33,622 nt of DNA from positions 1 to 33,622 of the forward strand of contig JABWAJ010000003.1 of assembly GCA_013361075.1 (NCBI GenBank), written 5' to 3'. Position numbers and translations under genes: made by a program. The notes beneath the pieces were generated by a model that was not told the DNA's origin, ran no database searches, and was given only the letters and a program-made list of their open reading frames with translations. Shown piece after piece: positions 6,133-31,128 of this stretch. The DNA comes from Saprospiraceae bacterium. GTDB lineage: Bacteria > Bacteroidota > Bacteroidia > Chitinophagales > Saprospiraceae. Position 1 is the first letter of the stretch, and the number at the start of each line of letters is the position of its first letter.

Positions 6133-7146
6133 ATGTCCGATTTGCCCCTTATCAGCATACTCATGCCGGTTCGAAATGCAGCACCTTACCTGGAAGCCTG
6201 CATCGAATCAATACTTGGGCAAACCTACTCCCATTGGGAATTGCTCCCCGTTGACGATGGTTCGGAAGACGACAGTCTGGCCCTGCTGGAACGGTTTGCA
6301 GCGCTTGACCAACGCATTCGGGTCAACCGGCACCCCGGGCACAGGGGCATTCCTGCGGCTTTACGGCTTGCTTTTTCACAAAGCCGTGGCTCGCTCCTCA
6401 CGCGCATGGATGCGGACGACTGTATGGTACCGCAAAAACTGGCGCAACTTTGCAACTTGCTGCAACATAACGGCCCCGGCCACGTAGCGACTGCCCCTGT
6501 AGCCTATTTTTCTGATACAGTTTTGGGGCCCGGTTATCTCCGCTATCAGAACTGGTTGAACGACCTGATGCAAACGGGGCGTCATTATGAGGATATTTAC
6601 AAAGAATGTGTGCTTCCGTCGCCTTGCTGGATGGCGTTTCGGGAGGATTTGCTGCGCTGCGGTGCTTTTGTTGCAGCAACGTATCCCGAAGATTATGACC
6701 TCTGTTTTCGATTTTACAAAGCCGGTTACCGCATTGTGGCAGCGAACGAACCGCTGCACTTCTGGCGGGATCATGCCAGCCGGGCTTCGCGCAACGAACC
6801 ACAGTACGCCAACCAAAGTTATTTTGATCTGAAATTGCCCTATTTTCTGGAACTCGACCACGCTCCCGATCGCCCGCTGGTACTCTGGGGGGCCGGGAAA
6901 AAAGGGAAACAAATTGCAAAACGGCTCGCTGAAAAAGGAATTTCCTTTCACTGGGTTTGTGATAACCCCGCAAAATGGGGCATCCGGCTTTTTGAAACCG
7001 AATTAAAAGACTTTCGGTGTGTTTCGGAAATGGTTCGCCCTCAATTGATCATTGCAGTAGCCGCACCGGACGGGCAGGCAGAAATTTTGAGATTTCTCCA
7101 ACAGCATACCTACCGCCCGGGGGAGGATTATTTCTTTTTTTGTTGA
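6133..7146 (+). CDS. Family 2 glycosyltransferase with C-terminal nucleotide-binding-like domain
   Basis: This is a GT-A fold sugar transferase, probably acting at the cytoplasmic face in surface glycan assembly. The opening PLISILMPVRNAAPYLEACI and the DDGSEDDS motif are typical of GT2; MDADD at about residues 94-98 is the metal-binding DXD region, and YPEDYDLCFR is the usual acceptor-side ED motif. From about residue 247 there is a separate segment (VLWGAGKKGKQIAKRLAE) with a Gly-rich Rossmann-like turn. That segment resembles the nucleotide-binding half of PglD-like proteins and is an uncommon addition. The ATG at 6133 is preferred over the TTG at 6124. It follows porZ after 14 bp, so the two are probably co-transcribed. 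The sugar substrate cannot be told. Confidence 0.85.
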   Translation: MSDLPLISILMPVRNAAPYLEACIESILGQTYSHWELLPVDDGSEDDSLALLERFAALDQRIRVNRHPGHRGIPAALRLAFSQSRGSLLTRMDADDCMVPQKLAQLCNLLQHNGPGHVATAPVAYFSDTVLGPGYLRYQNWLNDLMQTGRHYEDIYKECVLPSPCWMAFREDLLRCGAFVAATYPEDYDLCFRFYKAGYRIVAANEPLHFWRDHASRASRNEPQYANQSYFDLKLPYFLELDHAPDRPLVLWGAGKKGKQIAKRLAEKGISFHWVCDNPAKWGIRLFETELKDFRCVSEMVRPQLIIAVAAPDGQAEILRFLQQHTYRPGEDYFFFC

Positions 7147-24141: not shown

Positions 24142-24215
24142 GGTTCGGTAGTTCAGTCGGTTAGAATACCTGCCTGTCACGCAGGGGGTCGCGGGTTCGA
24201 GTCCCGTCCGGACCG
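24142..24215 (+). tRNA. tRNA-Asp (anticodon GTC)
   Basis: A 74-nt cloverleaf is visible. The acceptor stem GGTTCGG pairs with CCGGACC. The anticodon stem-loop CCTGC-CTGTCAC-GCAGG carries GTC at 24176-24178, and the T arm is GCGGG-TTCGAGT-CCCGT. The discriminator base is G. The 3' CCA is not encoded (GCTTAG follows), as is common in this phylum. A hairpin terminator lies 25 bp downstream. The gene sits next to a tyrosine recombinase gene, so its 3' half is a likely integration site. Confidence 0.97.
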
Positions 24216-24240
24216 CTTAGATTTTCACAATTCAATTCTT

Positions 24241-25566: not shown

Positions 25567-25700
25567 TGCCGGCAAGCATCGCATAAAGTGTTGATAAGAT
25601 TATCATTACAACGAAAGACAAAACCCGGCGACATACCTGAAGCATCGCGTAAAATACGGATGCAACCAGGTAGACATTGATAACAAAAATTTGCACCTGG

Positions 25701-25730
25701 TCGCCGCCGGCGGTGGCTTTTTGTTATCAA
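25701..25730 (+). repeat. Direct repeat copy 1 (region A)
   Basis: TCGCCGCCGGC followed by GGTGGCTTTTTGTTATCAA. It matches the copy at 30670-30702 at 28 of 30 bases apart from a 3-nt insertion there, and has the same orientation. The GC-rich part followed by a T run could also act as a terminator for the integrase gene on the plus strand. Confidence 0.75.
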
Positions 25731-25780
25731 ATTACCGCCCGCAGCAGCAGCTCGAGGCCAGGCCTCAGCGAAAAACTGAT

Positions 25781-25815
25781 AACAAAACAGGCTGCCGGGT
25801 TTCCCCGACAGCCTG
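25781..25815 (-). terminator. Intrinsic terminator of the minus-strand phage-like block
   Basis: Read on the minus strand, CAGGCTG and CAGCCTG (25788-25794 and 25809-25815 on plus) with an inner CGGG/CCCG pair form a stem, followed directly by TTTTGTTATCAGTTTTT. It lies about 35 bp after the last gene of the block (stop at 25849). Confidence 0.75.
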
Positions 25816-25848: not shown

Positions 25849-26148
25849 CTATGCCCAACCTGCATTTGGCGGCAGGTCTAAAATGGCGTTGATTTCTTCC
25901 TCACTGCGGCCGTGAAAGGGGCCGCCTGGCTCAAACAACCACTTCGAGCGTCCGTATAGATTCACAATGGCCACCGTCCAGGCGTTGAGCGCTGCAATGA
26001 TCGCTGTGGCGGATTGTCCTGGCTGCGGCTGCGGTTTTGGCGGCTCGTATGGGTTACGGGGCGGCGCTGTGCTGCGCTTTTGCTGAAACAGGAGCAACGC
26101 GGCCACACCGATCAGGATAAAAGGAACGAGGTTGTTTTTCTTAGCCAT
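25849..26148 (-). CDS. Small membrane-anchored protein with Pro-rich linker (99 aa)
   Basis: Not a recognised family. The protein has one short N-terminal membrane segment (residues 7-21, FILIGVAALLLF), a basic end QQKR, then a Pro-rich linker (RNPYEPPKPQPQPG) and a C-terminal helical part (AIIAALNAWTVAIVNLYGRSKWLF). The anchor closely resembles those of three other proteins of the block (61, 197 and 196 aa). It is the last gene of the minus-strand block and lies 10 bp after the RadC-like gene. It may be a virion membrane protein or another part of the phage-like particle, but that is inference. Confidence 0.7.
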   Translation of the reverse strand: MAKKNNLVPFILIGVAALLLFQQKRSTAPPRNPYEPPKPQPQPGQSATAIIAALNAWTVAIVNLYGRSKWLFEPGGPFHGRSEEEINAILDLPPNAGWA

Positions 26149-26158
26149 AATGCGTTCT

Positions 26159-26749
26159 TTAGATCATTCCTTCGTTTGCAAAGGAGTAATAGCCGTTGGC
26201 GGTGACAATGATGTGATCCAACAGCCTTATATTCAGTGCTGACAGCGCAGTGTTCAGCTTTTTGGTAATGTCCATATCGGCCTGAGAGGGCCTTAAATTG
26301 CCGCTTGGGTGATTGTGCGAAACGATCACACCTGAAGCAAGCGACTTTAAAGCCGCCACGGCAATGATTGGCGGATCTACTACCGTGCCGCTGATGCCAC
26401 CCACAGACATGATCATGTAACCAATCGGACGGTTCGCGTAGTTCAGGAAAACGGCTACAAATACCTCCTGAACCTGCATTCTTCTGCCAATCACTCTTTT
26501 GAGGAAAGCTGCGGAATCGTCAGCGCTTTTAAAGGAATCTTCGCCGATAAAAGGCCCGTTTTTCATGCGCAGGTTGATCTCCCTGGACCTGACAATTGTG
26601 CCGGAACCGGTCGCTTTGCCGTTAATGCCCGGATCGTCAATGACGGGGGGCAATGCACCGGTTGGATAAGCCACGGCACCAATTCCGCTTTGCCTGCGCC
26701 CAAGCAACAACAATGCTCCGAGTCCCAATAAGAGGTGTTCCGCTTTCAT
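26159..26749 (-). CDS. Membrane-anchored RadC-like JAB/MPN domain protein
   Basis: RadC-like proteins carry a JAB metallo-isopeptidase-type fold and are frequent on phages, plasmids and islands; their true role is not settled. This 196-aa form has the metal motif SHNHPSGNLRPSQAD at about residues 144-158, a Glu at about 95 (VQEVFVAVFLN) and the C-terminal LLDHIIVTANGYYSF. Unusually it starts with a short membrane anchor (LLLGLGALLLLGRR, residues 6-19) and a Pro/Gly-rich linker, and lacks the N-terminal helix-hairpin-helix part of chromosomal RadC. Its start overlaps the 901-aa gene by 4 bp (ATGA). Confidence 0.87.
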   Translation of the reverse strand: MKAEHLLLGLGALLLLGRRQSGIGAVAYPTGALPPVIDDPGINGKATGSGTIVRSREINLRMKNGPFIGEDSFKSADDSAAFLKRVIGRRMQVQEVFVAVFLNYANRPIGYMIMSVGGISGTVVDPPIIAVAALKSLASGVIVSHNHPSGNLRPSQADMDITKKLNTALSALNIRLLDHIIVTANGYYSFANEGMI

Positions 26750-29451
26750 GCCGTCAGGTGTTTGTGCCGGGGCCGATGCCCGGAAAGGTTGGCGAATAGG
26801 TTAACTTCCTGTTTGGCATATTGGGCGATATCGCCTTTCTTTTGCAGCAGGTTTTGATACTCGATTCTGGCCCGGGTGAGCTGTGCGCTGATCGGAGCGG
26901 TCAGTTCGAGGATCTGGTTTTCCGTTGCATTCCTGGAACGGTATTCCCGGATTTTTTCATCCAACTGCTTTTGCAGGGCTTTGACCGTTTCGGAAGCTTC
27001 GGCCAATTGCTGATTGTATTGCGCCTCGACCGGCGAAAGGGTCACATTGGCCGCGATGTTCAGGCTATCTTCAAGACGCCCAAATGTACTTCTCCGGTTG
27101 ATGATGGAGGCAAGGCGGTTGTTGAAGTCGCGTTCGTTGCTGATCTGCCCCTGGCGCGTTCCATAACCCAGGTTGTCCACCAGCCAAGTATATAGTTCAT
27201 CTTCGTGAAAATTGGTGAGCAGGCCATATTTTGCCCGTGCGTTGCCGATCCAGCGGGCAATGGTCCGAATATTTCCCTTGCTGGTGGCGTCGGCTCTCTC
27301 CAGGGCTTGCAGTGCTGTGTACGTCTTCCCGGAAGGGTTCAGATAAGACAAAGCAATAATCGTGCTCCAGTTGTCGCCTTCCAGCCGTTTGGCGTCTTTG
27401 TCGGCGTCGCGGCCCTGCATGCGCATGGCCCGGTAATATTCTGCGCGCTCCAGTTCGGTTTCTTTGGTGGAAAGAGTATTGCTTTCCAGGGCAATTCTTT
27501 TGGCTTCCTCCAGGCTGATATTGGCTTCGATTTTAGCCGGGATCTCGCAGAAGTTGCGGCCATCCACCACGGCACCGGCACGACAAAGCCGATTGAAGGC
27601 TTCCAAACGACTATGGCCGCTAAGCATATACAATTTGCCATCCGCCCCGGCCCATAAAATTACCGGATCGAGCTGACTCCAGCGAAAAGCGCCGGCTTTT
27701 ACAGCTTGCACAATGTTTTCGACGCTGCGCTCGCTGTATGGTGTCGCCCGGTTTTGGAACCAGACGCGGCGAATGCTGATAGCCTGAATGGGGATCAGGT
27801 CAATGCCGGTCGCCCGGCTTGTATTTTGCTTCATTGACGGCGGCAAAGAAGCCGTTGGAGCCGATACCGCTTTGGGCAATGAAATTTCTAAAATGGCAAT
27901 GGCCGCCTGCCTTGCATCATTGGTAAGTTGTCGCTGCCAGGCCTGGTTACTTGGTGCCCATCGGAATCCCCTCGATTTTAGTTTGTCACGAAGACTTACA
28001 GGCGGAATGCTGTCAAAGAAAATCTGAAGCCTGTTTTCTTCGATATTTTCCAGGATATAACCGCCATTGAAGTCCAGGCGCTTTTCTCCGCCTTCTGCCC
28101 TTGCTTCCTGGTTTTGTTTTTCAGCCTCCAGGCGTTGCCGGGTCCGTCTGATCTCTGCGTTGTTGTTGGTCAGTTGATAATCCGCAAATCCCGTTCGGCC
28201 TGCAAAGTCTGGCTTTTGTAACTCAATTGCCTGTGCTTCAGAAAGGCCAACTTCTGCCATCAGTCGCGCAGTTACATCTTTACCCGATCGGATGATCTGG
28301 TTTGCCAGTTTCATGCGTTCCTGGGAACTCTCCAGCTTTTGCAATTTCTCCGTGAGTTGCTGAATTGCCGTACTGGATCCGCTGCGGATCGGCTGCTTTG
28401 ATTTTCTTTCGGGGTAGATGTCGCCGTTTTTGCGGATGCGGGCCAAAGCTTTTTCTTCCCAGGCTATAAACTCGCCATAAGCTTTATGGTCGGCGTCTTT
28501 GCGTTTGTTTTGCTGCCTTGTCGGAAAGTTTGAGCCTCCGGTTATCATCATGCTCATGATGCCGGTTCTGCGTTGCAAAATGGCCCTGCGGCGTTCGCTG
28601 TATCTTTTCCGGAAAACTGAAAATTCAGCATCCAGGATGCGAAGTTGTTCAGGCGTCCGACCGGCACTCAATTCGTTGTATAATTGAGTCATGTAGGAGA
28701 TATGCCCTTCAATTTCCTGCTTTGCGCGAACCTCCGGAGAAAAGGAAGTGCCGCGATGTGCATCGTAGGCCAGCCGGTAAGGTATGTCCTTTTCAACGTC
28801 ATGCAGCGGATGACCGGGAGGGAAAGCGGATTCAGGACCGGGAGCCTCCTTTTCCTGCTTCGTTATTGGTTTTAGAGAAGGCGGCAAAGAAGCAGCCGGA
28901 GCGGGTAATTCAACAGGGTTGTTGATGTAATTTTCAAGCTCCACAAGCTTACGTTTTAGGTAAGCAATCGTCCCTGCATCTTCCTTAATGGTAATGGAAA
29001 GTATTCCTGTATTGATGTCGCGGAGTAAATGGCCAATCCGTTGTTGGAGTGTCTTAGGTTGGACTCCGGGTGCAAAATTATCATCAACAATTCCTTTGTC
29101 ATAAGCTAATGCCCTCAGCTTCATATATTTTTCATCCAGCTCCCGACAAACCTTATTTCGGAATCTGCACCGGCCTTCATATTTTGGCCTGACCGATTTT
29201 GGAATTGAAGCAGGGGCAACCTCCTCGCTTTGATTGGGGTTCCGGATAATGATCACTTTAGGCGCTGCGGCTGCATCCCTTCTGAATTGTGCTTCTTTGG
29301 TCGGCCTGCGTTTGGCCTTCATGCAGTTGGGCAGGGCCACGCCGCCATGGCGAGAGCAGCGGCCAGGATTTACGCTGGTCGTAAATTTGCCGTCAGCGCA
29401 TTCTTCGCGGCCTGGCGGCTGTCGGGATACTATGGCACCGATGTAAACCAT
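26746..29451 (-). CDS. 901-aa fusion protein: DUF3761-like motif, DUF3560, ParB-like domain, coiled coil
   Basis: This is the largest complete protein of the element. Visible parts in order: a Cys/His motif at about 18-38 (CADGKFTTSVNPGRCSRHGG) like DUF3761; helical, basic stretches; DUF3560 at about 361-515 (LSEAQAIELQKPDFAGRTGF, FADYQLTNNNAEIRRTR, LKSRGFRWAPSNQAWQRQLT); a ParB/Srx-like domain at about 550-660 (LIPIQAISI and MLSGHSRLEAFNRL); and a coiled coil at about 808-880. Near-identical linkers ASLPPSLKP and ASLPPSMKQ flank the central part. DUF3560 and ParB-like domains are typical of plasmids and phages, often with DNA modification or replication genes. The start (MVYIGAIV) overlaps the stop codon of the 131-aa gene (TAATG). 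The job is unknown; DNA processing or internal virion protein are possible. Confidence 0.85.
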   Translation of the reverse strand: MVYIGAIVSRQPPGREECADGKFTTSVNPGRCSRHGGVALPNCMKAKRRPTKEAQFRRDAAAAPKVIIIRNPNQSEEVAPASIPKSVRPKYEGRCRFRNKVCRELDEKYMKLRALAYDKGIVDDNFAPGVQPKTLQQRIGHLLRDINTGILSITIKEDAGTIAYLKRKLVELENYINNPVELPAPAASLPPSLKPITKQEKEAPGPESAFPPGHPLHDVEKDIPYRLAYDAHRGTSFSPEVRAKQEIEGHISYMTQLYNELSAGRTPEQLRILDAEFSVFRKRYSERRRAILQRRTGIMSMMITGGSNFPTRQQNKRKDADHKAYGEFIAWEEKALARIRKNGDIYPERKSKQPIRSGSSTAIQQLTEKLQKLESSQERMKLANQIIRSGKDVTARLMAEVGLSEAQAIELQKPDFAGRTGFADYQLTNNNAEIRRTRQRLEAEKQNQEARAEGGEKRLDFNGGYILENIEENRLQIFFDSIPPVSLRDKLKSRGFRWAPSNQAWQRQLTNDARQAAIAILEISLPKAVSAPTASLPPSMKQNTSRATGIDLIPIQAISIRRVWFQNRATPYSERSVENIVQAVKAGAFRWSQLDPVILWAGADGKLYMLSGHSRLEAFNRLCRAGAVVDGRNFCEIPAKIEANISLEEAKRIALESNTLSTKETELERAEYYRAMRMQGRDADKDAKRLEGDNWSTIIALSYLNPSGKTYTALQALERADATSKGNIRTIARWIGNARAKYGLLTNFHEDELYTWLVDNLGYGTRQGQISNERDFNNRLASIINRRSTFGRLEDSLNIAANVTLSPVEAQYNQQLAEASETVKALQKQLDEKIREYRSRNATENQILELTAPISAQLTRARIEYQNLLQKKGDIAQYAKQEVNLFANLSGHRPRHKHLTA

Positions 29452-29846
29452 TACCAGTTGCCTTCATTCAATTGAGCCAATTTGATCACGGCAAAGCCTC
29501 CCAGGACATACGCGCCGATGGTCAGTGCTTTCTGCAGAAGCGGTTTTTCCTGCCATGCCTGGTCTTCCAGGGTTGTAACTCCTTGTTGCTCTAATTTTGT
29601 CGTATCGAAGCGGCCCGGATAGTGTTCTACCCAAACAAAACTGCCGTCTTCCTTTTCGATCTGCCACCACAGGTTTTTCCGACCGGTTGTAGGTTCTACA
29701 TAGGAATAAACGAGGCCAATGGCATTGCCCGGCGCTACCGTGTAAAAGGTTGCCTGGCCGTCATAAGGCAGTTTTTTGACATCTACGCGGGTGCGCGCAT
29801 GCAGGGTTTTCCCGATTACCTGGTCTGCACTAATGGTACTTGGCAT
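29451..29846 (-). CDS. 131-aa protein with SH3-like N-terminus and C-terminal membrane segment
   Basis: Not a recognised family. Residues about 5-85 look like a small beta-barrel of the SH3 type (DGQATFYTVAPGNAIGLVYSYV and LWWQIEKEDGSFVWVEHYPG). Residues about 104-122 form one membrane helix (LQKALTIGAYVLGGFAVIK), so the protein is tail-anchored. It lies 2 bp after the peptidoglycan hydrolase gene and shares its stop/start with the 901-aa gene. SH3-like domains often bind cell wall or peptide ligands, which would fit a role beside the hydrolase, but this is inference. Confidence 0.7.
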   Translation of the reverse strand: MPSTISADQVIGKTLHARTRVDVKKLPYDGQATFYTVAPGNAIGLVYSYVEPTTGRKNLWWQIEKEDGSFVWVEHYPGRFDTTKLEQQGVTTLEDQAWQEKPLLQKALTIGAYVLGGFAVIKLAQLNEGNW

Positions 29847-29848
29847 GG

Positions 29849-30442
29849 CTAAAGCATTGAATAAGCTAAATCAAACATCTCGTTAGAAATCACTCCGTTT
29901 CGCCCGTTTTCTACGTCGGCCATGGGGATGGCTAATTTCCGTAAGGTTTCTTTGTTTGCGGTCAATACCTGGTTTGGGATCAGCCCACCGTTGAAGGCAA
30001 CACTTGAAATGTAGCTGCCGGGGTTGTTGCCATCCGAAGCGGGAGCCCAGCGGTTGATGATTTTGTCTAGTGTGTTGTATCCGTCGCCAATGTAATTTTT
30101 CAGGAGCTTGATCATTGCCCGTGTGCCATAGGCGAAGGTTTGGAACTGCTCAAAAGCCGGGTCGGTTCCGTTTGCAATTTTCCCCTGCCAGGCGCTCGAA
30201 GATTTGCGCAAATTGCCGGGGTTGTTGTTGCGCATGCCGCGAGGCAGGCCGGTTTGCCCCAGGTATGACAGGGAGGCCAGGCCGCCGCCAGGCAAAACGC
30301 CACCGCCTCCATCCGGAGGTGGTGTCACAGCGCCTGCCTTGCTTGACAGCAACAAAAGCAGCAAGGCCCCGCCACCGGCAATCATGATCTTTTGTTGCTG
30401 GGACATGTTCCCCAGGAATCCAGCCTTTTTACTTCGTGCCAT
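29849..30442 (-). CDS. Membrane-anchored phage-type peptidoglycan hydrolase (structural protein P5-like)
   Basis: The 197-aa protein begins with a basic stretch and a short membrane anchor (residues 19-33, IMIAGGGALLLLLL), then a Pro/Gly-rich linker, then the catalytic-type domain from about residue 65. The domain opens with RGMRNNNPGNLRKSSSAWQGK, continues with FEQFQTFAYGTRAMIKLLKNYI and has INRWAPASDGNNPGSYISSV. The MRNNNPGN opening and RWAP motif mark a family found in phages, often annotated as structural protein P5 or a lysozyme-like hydrolase that opens the cell wall during entry or lysis. The anchor suggests it is kept in a membrane, not free in the cytoplasm. Neighbours on both sides are 2 bp away. 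Confidence 0.82.
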   Translation of the reverse strand: MARSKKAGFLGNMSQQQKIMIAGGGALLLLLLSSKAGAVTPPPDGGGGVLPGGGLASLSYLGQTGLPRGMRNNNPGNLRKSSSAWQGKIANGTDPAFEQFQTFAYGTRAMIKLLKNYIGDGYNTLDKIINRWAPASDGNNPGSYISSVAFNGGLIPNQVLTANKETLRKLAIPMADVENGRNGVISNEMFDLAYSML

Positions 30443-30444
30443 AG

Positions 30445-30630
30445 CTACGCCGTTTTGTTGCGGATATAATACCGGCCACTAACCGAATTGGGAACATCAG
30501 CCGGTTTTACCGGCTCAACAGCCGGTTCTACAATCGTACTGCCTGCCGGTGTTGGTGCACCCGGCTTTTTTGAAAGCAGGATGATTCCAAGTATTGCCAG
30601 CCCAAACCAAATTTTCTTGTCCTTTTTCAT
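30445..30630 (-). CDS. 61-aa single-pass membrane peptide
   Basis: A basic N-terminus (MKKDKK), one short membrane helix (about 7-20, IWFGLAILGIILL), a KK pair and a Pro/Val-rich tail (TIVEPAVEPVKPADVPNS). No family is recognised. It starts directly after noncoding region B, whose first TGTTATCA copy ends at 30646 (read on the minus strand, TGATAACAAAAGCGGT precedes the ATG). It ends 2 bp before the hydrolase gene. The layout and anchor match the other membrane proteins of the block, and small proteins of this kind are common in membrane-containing phages. Confidence 0.65.
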   Translation of the reverse strand: MKKDKKIWFGLAILGIILLSKKPGAPTPAGSTIVEPAVEPVKPADVPNSVSGRYYIRNKTA

Positions 30631-30750
30631 ACCGCTTTTGTTATCAGTTTACCGTCGGATCTGCGCCGATCGCTGCCGGCGCTGGTGGCTTTCTGTTATC
30701 AATTTGCTTTCCCCGGGAAAGACCTGGTCTTTGAATTTGATAACAAGCCC
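30631..30750. other. Noncoding region B: second repeat cluster
   Basis: This 120-bp gap holds three TGTTATCA octamers (30639-30646 forward, 30694-30701 forward, 30738-30745 reverse) and two overlapping palindromes (CTTTCCccgGGAAAG and AAAGACCtGGTCTTT). It also carries the second copy of the ~30-bp repeat. It interrupts an otherwise almost gap-free minus-strand block and is probably the regulatory or recombination counterpart of region A. Confidence 0.75.
30670..30702 (+). repeat. Direct repeat copy 2 (region B)
   Basis: TCGCTGCCGGC-gct-GGTGGCTTTCTGTTATCAA, in the same orientation as 25701-25730 and 4,969 bp away. Two substitutions and a 3-nt insertion separate the copies. Confidence 0.75.
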
Positions 30751-31128
30751 TTACGCGGCCTGCTTCAAAGTGCCGACCCAATCCTTTGTTTCTTCAAACA
30801 GGATGGTCGCGCCTTCCACCTGGTGATACCATTTTGCCACCAACCGGACGCCGGTTTCGATCCGGGCTTCTACCTGGTCGTTGGGAATGTCGAACTCCAG
30901 GGCGATGAAGTCGGCCAGTTCCTGGGCTTCAATGCTGTCAAGATCCTTCAGCTCCAGCCAACCGGCGTGGGCCTCCTGGAGGATCAAATTCACGTTTGGC
31001 CACTGTTTGACAATGACAAACAGGTCTTCAAACTGCGCGCCGTCTTTGAGCGCTGCGGATACCGTTGTGGCTAAGTTCAGGATGCCAGCAAAGAGTACTT
31101 TTAGTTTTGCAATGCCGAGTTTTTGCAT
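30751..31128 (-). CDS. Hypothetical phage-associated protein, 125 aa
   Basis: No family is recognised. The protein looks soluble and helical, with acidic character (QFEDLFVIVKQWPNVNLIL, LDSIEAQELADFIALEF) and a paired-helix layout. No signal peptide or membrane segment is seen. It lies between the holin-like gene (23 bp upstream) and region B, on the same strand, so it probably belongs to the same transcript as the spike and holin genes. A virion or lysis-related accessory role is possible but not shown. Confidence 0.7.
   Translation of the reverse strand: MQKLGIAKLKVLFAGILNLATTVSAALKDGAQFEDLFVIVKQWPNVNLILQEAHAGWLELKDLDSIEAQELADFIALEFDIPNDQVEARIETGVRLVAKWYHQVEGATILFEETKDWVGTLKQAA

Follow-up and report, generated by a model that had tools for sequence, protein, structure and literature searches.

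The window, i.e., the whole stretch of 33,622 bases analysed here, is the entire contig C30 of its source genome. A tRNA-Asp, a tyrosine integrase gene and a block of minus-strand genes running from position 25849 to the contig end together make up an integrated element (Table 1). Because the window ends where contig C30 ends, the right end of the element is missing. The tRNA-Asp(GTC) is the probable integration site; a second repeat of the tRNA end, as the far attachment site, was sought in the fragmented genome and none was found. The integrase is 47% identical, over its full length, to that of a relative contained on one single contig (G104). A rare motif, TTGTTATCA, occurs five times in the window compared with 0.3 expected copies, and exclusively in intergenic stretches of the element. 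Judged by sequence, these copies might be operator or promoter sites.

All five genes for which the original prediction had claimed membrane anchors were confirmed, on the minus strand within 25849-30630. The 901-aa protein encoded among them starts with a DUF3761-like CxDG..CxxHGG stretch, followed by primase-annotated and ParB-like regions.

Table 1. Features of the integrated element in the window
Feature	Position	Strand	Basis or homologues
tRNA-Asp(GTC)	24142..24216	+	ARAGORN, Rfam
Tyrosine integrase, 390 aa	24394..25566	+	Pfam Phage_integrase, Phage_int_SAM_5, Arm-DNA-bind_5
TTGTTATCA, three copies beyond the 3' end of the gene block	25678..25785	.	Motif count
99-aa protein, N-terminal anchor 7-21, Pro-rich linker, conserved tail PGGPF...LDLPP	25849..26148	-	Homologues L095, L123
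196-aa RadC/JAB protein, hydrophobic start 6-17	26159..26749	-	Pfam RadC E=2e-36
901-aa multidomain protein, no anchor	26746..29451	-	PHROG primase E=1e-43, ParB E=2e-10
131-aa protein, C-terminal anchor	29451..29846	-	Homologues L003, L093, L095, L130, C-terminal helix in 4/4
197-aa predicted peptidoglycan hydrolase of PM2 P5 type, N-terminal anchor 19-32	29849..30442	-	Homology to PM2 P5
61-aa protein, N-terminal anchor 7-19, then KK and Pro-rich tail	30445..30630	-	Homologues L119, L091, L123, all anchored
TTGTTATCA, two facing copies between the 61-aa and 125-aa genes	30638..30746	.	Motif count
125-aa protein, single hydrophobic segment near the N-terminus	30751..31128	-	Homologue L093:10860-11360
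Holin-like membrane protein, 120 aa	31152..31514	-	PHROG 2359 holin E=2.7e-15
Fibre-like protein, cut at the contig end	31533..33622	-	Reading frame open to contig end

Terminal hydrophobic segments and their conservation

Each protein was shuffled 5000 times with its composition kept, and the terminal hydrophobic run was scored. The run exceeded that of the shuffled sequences in the 99-aa (p=0.0006), 61-aa (p=0.0008) and 197-aa (p=0.003) proteins, and also in the 131-aa protein (p=0.022), in which the hydrophobic segment is C-terminal, as predicted, and begins near residue 107. The hydrophobic start of RadC was weak (12 residues, p=0.10), so that three of the four predicted N-terminal anchors stand out clearly. 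We dropped an anchor on the 125-aa protein, the segment of which did not go beyond shuffles (p=0.17). A basic pair follows the helix in three of the four N-terminal anchors (SKK, RR, QQKR), the 197-aa protein having a single Lys instead (SSKAGA), and a Pro/Gly linker leads on to the domain in all four, as had been predicted. Otherwise the anchors are alike in composition only and have no sequence in common. The single N-terminal design of the original prediction holds for layout and composition: the anchors are real, but they represent a common design rather than one sequence.

Terminal hydrophobicity was scored in seven of nine element genes compared with 10 of the 51 genes of the tailed Flavobacterium phage 11b. 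It was also scored in 12 of the 26 host genes of the window, eight of these encoding classical signal peptides or lipoproteins. Its wide occurrence in the host is due to the large number of host proteins with signal peptides, and by such counts alone the element could not be separated from the host genes of the window. The case for the anchors hence builds on their conservation in relatives and on their lack of signal-peptide ends, not on hydrophobicity.

Related elements were identified within the same family, order and class as well as in IMG/VR, and they include the Saprospiraceae MAG contigs JAIPBE010000011.1 and JAHBTW010000002.1. The original prediction had made shared targeting depend on homologues keeping their anchors, and in these elements they are kept. 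All five members found of the 131-aa family have the C-terminal helix, and all 12 element copies of the P5-type hydrolase a terminal membrane helix, which is N-terminal in 11 and C-terminal in one (L136). The 61-aa and 99-aa families likewise keep their N-terminal helices, among them both 99-aa homologues, L095:8179-8511 (BLASTP E=4e-9) and L123:38-364. A 70-aa protein of L095 looks like the 61-aa protein by eye; this relation was unsupported by BLASTP and was rejected. Terminal helices are also found on wall-cutting enzymes that are not homologous to P5, i.e., the GH108 lysozymes of L095, L125 and L130 and the amidases of L091 and L092. Other elements have GH108 lysozymes or amidases in place of the P5 hydrolase or next to it, and most of these enzymes, but not every one, have a terminal helix; in L095, a GH108 lysozyme and a P5 hydrolase occur together, with one helix each.

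The N-terminal segments could instead be ordinary Sec signal peptides, which would leave the mature proteins in the periplasm. Protein export is abundant in Bacteroidota, the 197-aa protein has a possible AGA/V site, and the lysozyme homologues of L123 and L094 are signal-peptide-like, ending in FGQ and SGQ. However, exported host proteins have an '..AQ' or lipobox end in seven of eight cases by a motif test, and in eight of eight by eye, and the element's own fibre-like proteins have Bacteroidota-type signal peptides ending in AQ, GQ or SQ (13 of 14 by motif, the last by eye). The '..AQ' and lipobox ends are absent from the window anchors and from nearly all homologues of the 61-aa and 99-aa proteins. 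In addition, basic residues stand just after the helix, one to three of them in the window anchors and two to five in the 61-aa and 99-aa homologues. A C-terminal helix, such as those of the 131-aa family, of L136 and phiCjT23 and of three GH108 lysozymes, cannot be a signal peptide. We hence regard cleaved Sec signals as quite unlikely for the window proteins, in line with the original prediction.

The P5-type hydrolase and the RadC and ParB-like proteins

A profile made solely from the element copies retrieved the PM2 structural protein P5 (E=6e-37), a protein of the autolykivirus 1.249.A (2e-46) and gp10 of phiCjT23 (1e-47). The 197-aa protein itself gave matches to families of phage endolysins and of internal virion proteins, and also to the Enc34 endolysin structure 7q47 (E=2e-12). 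According to Yutin et al. 2022, the homologues of P5 throughout Corticoviridae and Autolykiviridae are lysins, for which a Trp-Tyr-Glu triad was proposed (PMC9502842). In our alignment, where residue numbering is off by two or three from theirs, the active-site Glu and Tyr do not vary among the 15 sequences, and the third position is occupied by Trp or Tyr. From its sequence, the 197-aa protein is a homologue of PM2 P5 and a predicted P5-type peptidoglycan hydrolase. The helix is N-terminal in PM2 P5 and in the autolykivirus protein, and C-terminal in phiCjT23 gp10. Other viral contigs contain some 75 further copies of the domain, most of them within large tailed-phage proteins; none of these had a flanking segment at our threshold of 1.8, although some reached 1.5-1.7. 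Anchored P5-type lysins are already known in lipid-containing tailless phages, and the novelty originally claimed holds for the set of proteins but not for this member.

The 196-aa RadC/JAB protein has an intact HxHPSG..SxxD motif. RadC was absent from all other elements of the set, none of 29 other RadC genes examined has a hydrophobic start, and a viral scan for RadC relatives gave a single match, which was unanchored. As the other elements have no RadC and the 29 genes no such start, we treat the RadC anchor as hypothetical. It is conceivable enough to be taken seriously, although we lean against it, that the RadC start is a coincidence on a soluble mobile-element RadC and that the set consists of the other four proteins only. 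The shortness of the run and its shuffle result fit with this, as does the lack of parallels in other elements and RadC genes. On the other hand, the full pattern is present, namely basic start, hydrophobic run, RR, Pro/Gly linker and domain, and it replaces the usual RadC N-terminal region.

At L003:5532-7289, an anchored P5-type hydrolase is naturally fused to a ParB-like domain via a CxDG..CxxHGG (DUF3761-like) stretch; its ParB part is 44% identical over 351 aa to the 901-aa protein of the window. Iyer et al. 2017 list RadC domains and ParB-lysozyme fusions as parts of 'polyvalent' proteins of phages and conjugative elements, which are thought to be delivered with the DNA (PMC5512222). The L003 fusion and the RadC domain resemble these proteins, for which the passages considered mention no membrane anchoring.

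A candidate capsid cassette on a second contig

Relatives have a cassette of three adjacent genes for proteins of about 220-300, 140 and 260 aa, present in 25 elements (L137 and L178 counted), nearly all of them in one bacterial order. In the source genome there is a single cassette copy, on contig C675. At the end of this contig lies the beginning of a fibre gene, and the window breaks off within a fibre-like gene. Furthermore, C675 (L097) has two copies of the rare TTGTTATCA, at 6393 and 6449. A single contig of G104 carries the integrase, the ParB-like protein, the P5 hydrolase, the 131-aa homologue, the fibre-like genes and the cassette, in broadly matching order. From the fibre-gene ends, the common motif and the single contig of G104, we infer that C675 is probably the other half of the element, joined to the window, and that the N-terminal part of the window's fibre-like protein probably lies at its end.

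The cassette proteins gave no match beyond chance in PHROGs or Pfam and none in cultured phages; for the coat candidates, searches of PHROGs, Pfam, PDB sequences, cultured phages and IMG/VR yielded either no match or a single contig. A coat alignment of nine sequences was too diverse for a pattern search. A coat-candidate profile had no detectable similarity to the coat proteins of FLiP, phiCjT23 and PM2, and hhalign of 22 coat candidates against PM2 P2 returned a probability of 0.1. A structural model of the 140-aa protein (pLDDT 75) is a beta-sandwich with the SPV1 single jelly-roll capsid protein as best PDB match (prob 0.97, TM 0.44). The model of the larger protein (pLDDT 58) is beta-rich and weakly matches an iridovirus double jelly-roll capsid protein (prob 0.99, TM 0.34). 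With these pLDDT values, and TM values below 0.5, the predicted folds are hints rather than proof, and they suggest that the cassette probably comprises capsid genes. A packaging-type P-loop ATPase was not recognised in the cassette-bearing stretches searched, several of which are incomplete.

Some further observations concern individual relatives. No cassette was recognisable in L091 and L092, although both have the anchored hydrolase along with anchored amidases and subtilisin-like genes; L091 additionally encodes a P-loop ATPase of small size (PHROG terminase-like E=3e-10). An N-terminal hydrophobic segment is seen on the coat candidate in L090, L120, L125 and L126; most others are without it. 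Sec signal peptides with an AQ or GQ end occur on the fibre-like proteins L090:11475-14960, L093:13851-17625, L095:3647-6130, L119:3687-7786, L123:3446-7359 and L137:12645-15091 and on the fibre start on C675. Several fibre-like proteins have a common Cys-containing N-terminal domain (..CW..xxIDSxxxxYxL...G.C.CCG).

A tailless virus with a membrane as a possible origin of the block

Among known systems, PM2 (Corticovirus, Vinavirales) has in common with our element the homologous hydrolase P5 with its N-terminal helix, and numerous short proteins that each have a single terminal helix (P3, P4, P7, P8, P6, gp j) beside the coat gene. It differs in that the coat candidate here is without detectable relation to P2 and no packaging ATPase was recognised; the element here is also larger, with integrase, signal-peptide fibre-like genes, and ParB-like and RadC proteins. 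The lipid-containing ssDNA phages phiCjT23 and FLiP, both from Flavobacterium, agree with our element in host phylum, in a similar coat size and in having no packaging ATPase. The same hydrolase, with its helix C-terminal, is present as gp10 in phiCjT23, and the unrelated structural lytic enzyme of FLiP also has a C-terminal helix. However, their genomes are of 7.6-9.2 kb and their coats not detectably similar. In phiCjT23-like prophages, host Xer acts at dif (PMC9719478), whereas a tyrosine integrase lies beside a tRNA here. Autolykiviridae (Vibrio phage 1.249.A) have the same hydrolase with N-terminal helix, but also a known packaging ATPase and coat lineage (PMC9502842). By description, the Odin group of double jelly-roll viruses (Yutin 2018, PMC5894146) is similar in having no packaging ATPase, a ParB-like protein and a predicted single jelly-roll protein, but is of 7-11 kb; the packaging ATPase is also absent in the FLiP group (PMC5894146).

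We consider it rather probable that the block represents the right-hand portion of a temperate, tailless virus integrated in a Saprospiraceae genome. Its particle probably has an internal membrane, like those of PM2, FLiP and phiCjT23, and the 61-, 99-, 131- and 197-aa proteins would be taken into this membrane. The original prediction had proposed targeting of all five proteins to one membrane. A common membrane targeting is supported for these four by their conserved helices, and not for RadC, for which there is no anchored homologue. One of the four is a wall-cutting enzyme that the inner-membrane virus PM2 also has, and the anchored set therefore probably consists of viral-membrane parts, the virus belonging to a little-known group. 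The homologues of the hydrolase in three phages that contain lipid or have a double jelly-roll capsid, each with a terminal helix, likewise support a membrane in the virion, which we consider likely from the P5 homology and from the candidate capsid cassette with its low-confidence folds. During assembly, the four single-pass proteins would enter the host inner membrane; the shell would assemble there and the proteins would pass into the viral membrane, as in PM2, PRD1 and FLiP-type viruses. Held at this membrane, the 197-aa hydrolase may breach the cell wall during entry, during exit or at both stages, the charges around the helices being compatible with either side for the domains. The 901-aa protein with its ParB and primase regions and the RadC protein would be candidate cargo delivered with the DNA, to which L003, with this ParB domain joined directly to the anchored hydrolase, might be a parallel.

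The anchors might alternatively serve host release rather than a virion membrane, the block then being a lysis cassette of holin, membrane-held (SAR-type) endolysin and small spanin-like proteins. SAR sequences are rich in Gly and Ala, as is the core of the hydrolase helix, and the holin-like gene lies three genes away. P5 is moreover a putative endolysin according to Yutin et al. (PMC9502842), but in PM2 it is annotated as a structural protein. A lysis cassette would leave the anchors on the 99-aa, 131-aa and RadC proteins unexplained. Neither would SAR release be expected with the C-terminal helices in L136 and phiCjT23, nor does it fit with L095, in which GH108 lysozyme and P5 each have their own helix. 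We hence find this explanation improbable. For the tailless virus with an internal membrane, the main misfit lies in the Sec signal peptides on the fibre-like proteins, which do not go with a PM2-like particle built in the cytosol, and in the hydrophobic start of the coat candidate in four elements. It is possible that the particle is built or dressed outside the cytosol. The weak capsid models, the coat-candidate profile without detectable similarity to the FLiP, phiCjT23 and PM2 coats, and the failure to recognise a packaging ATPase also count against this virus.

We may speculate further, though as a whole this seems doubtful, about an undescribed tailless temperate lineage in Saprospiraceae and relatives. 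It would combine a membrane particle, unfamiliar shell proteins, no packaging ATPase and Sec-exported fibres with interchangeable single helices at either end, by which P5 hydrolase, GH108 lysozyme, amidase, RadC or a fusion of hydrolase and ParB would be fixed to the viral membrane and carried as cargo to the next cell. To our knowledge, the only lipid-containing phages known from Bacteroidota are FLiP and phiCjT23, which are small ssDNA phages, together with their prophages. An integrated lineage of larger size that had the anchored hydrolase of PM2 but neither the coat nor the ATPase of that virus would extend the range of membrane-containing viruses known so far, and such prophages are open to testing by induction. 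Enzyme domains swapped onto simple terminal helices would also give a checkable rule for finding virion-membrane proteins in elements of this kind.

Two other gene arrangements recur in the related elements. In many of them, a very Lys/Arg-rich small protein is encoded shortly upstream of the coat candidate, e.g., L097:3348-3617, L090:18170-18442, L095:138-365, L119:11008-11289, L137:9311-9529 and L178:2009-2200; from its composition, it is possibly DNA-condensing. A gene for a LEA_2-like protein and, next after it, one for a transglutaminase-like protein that has membrane segments are found at L095:18485-19680, L178:2204-4284, L120:5411-6501 and L123:11218-13361.
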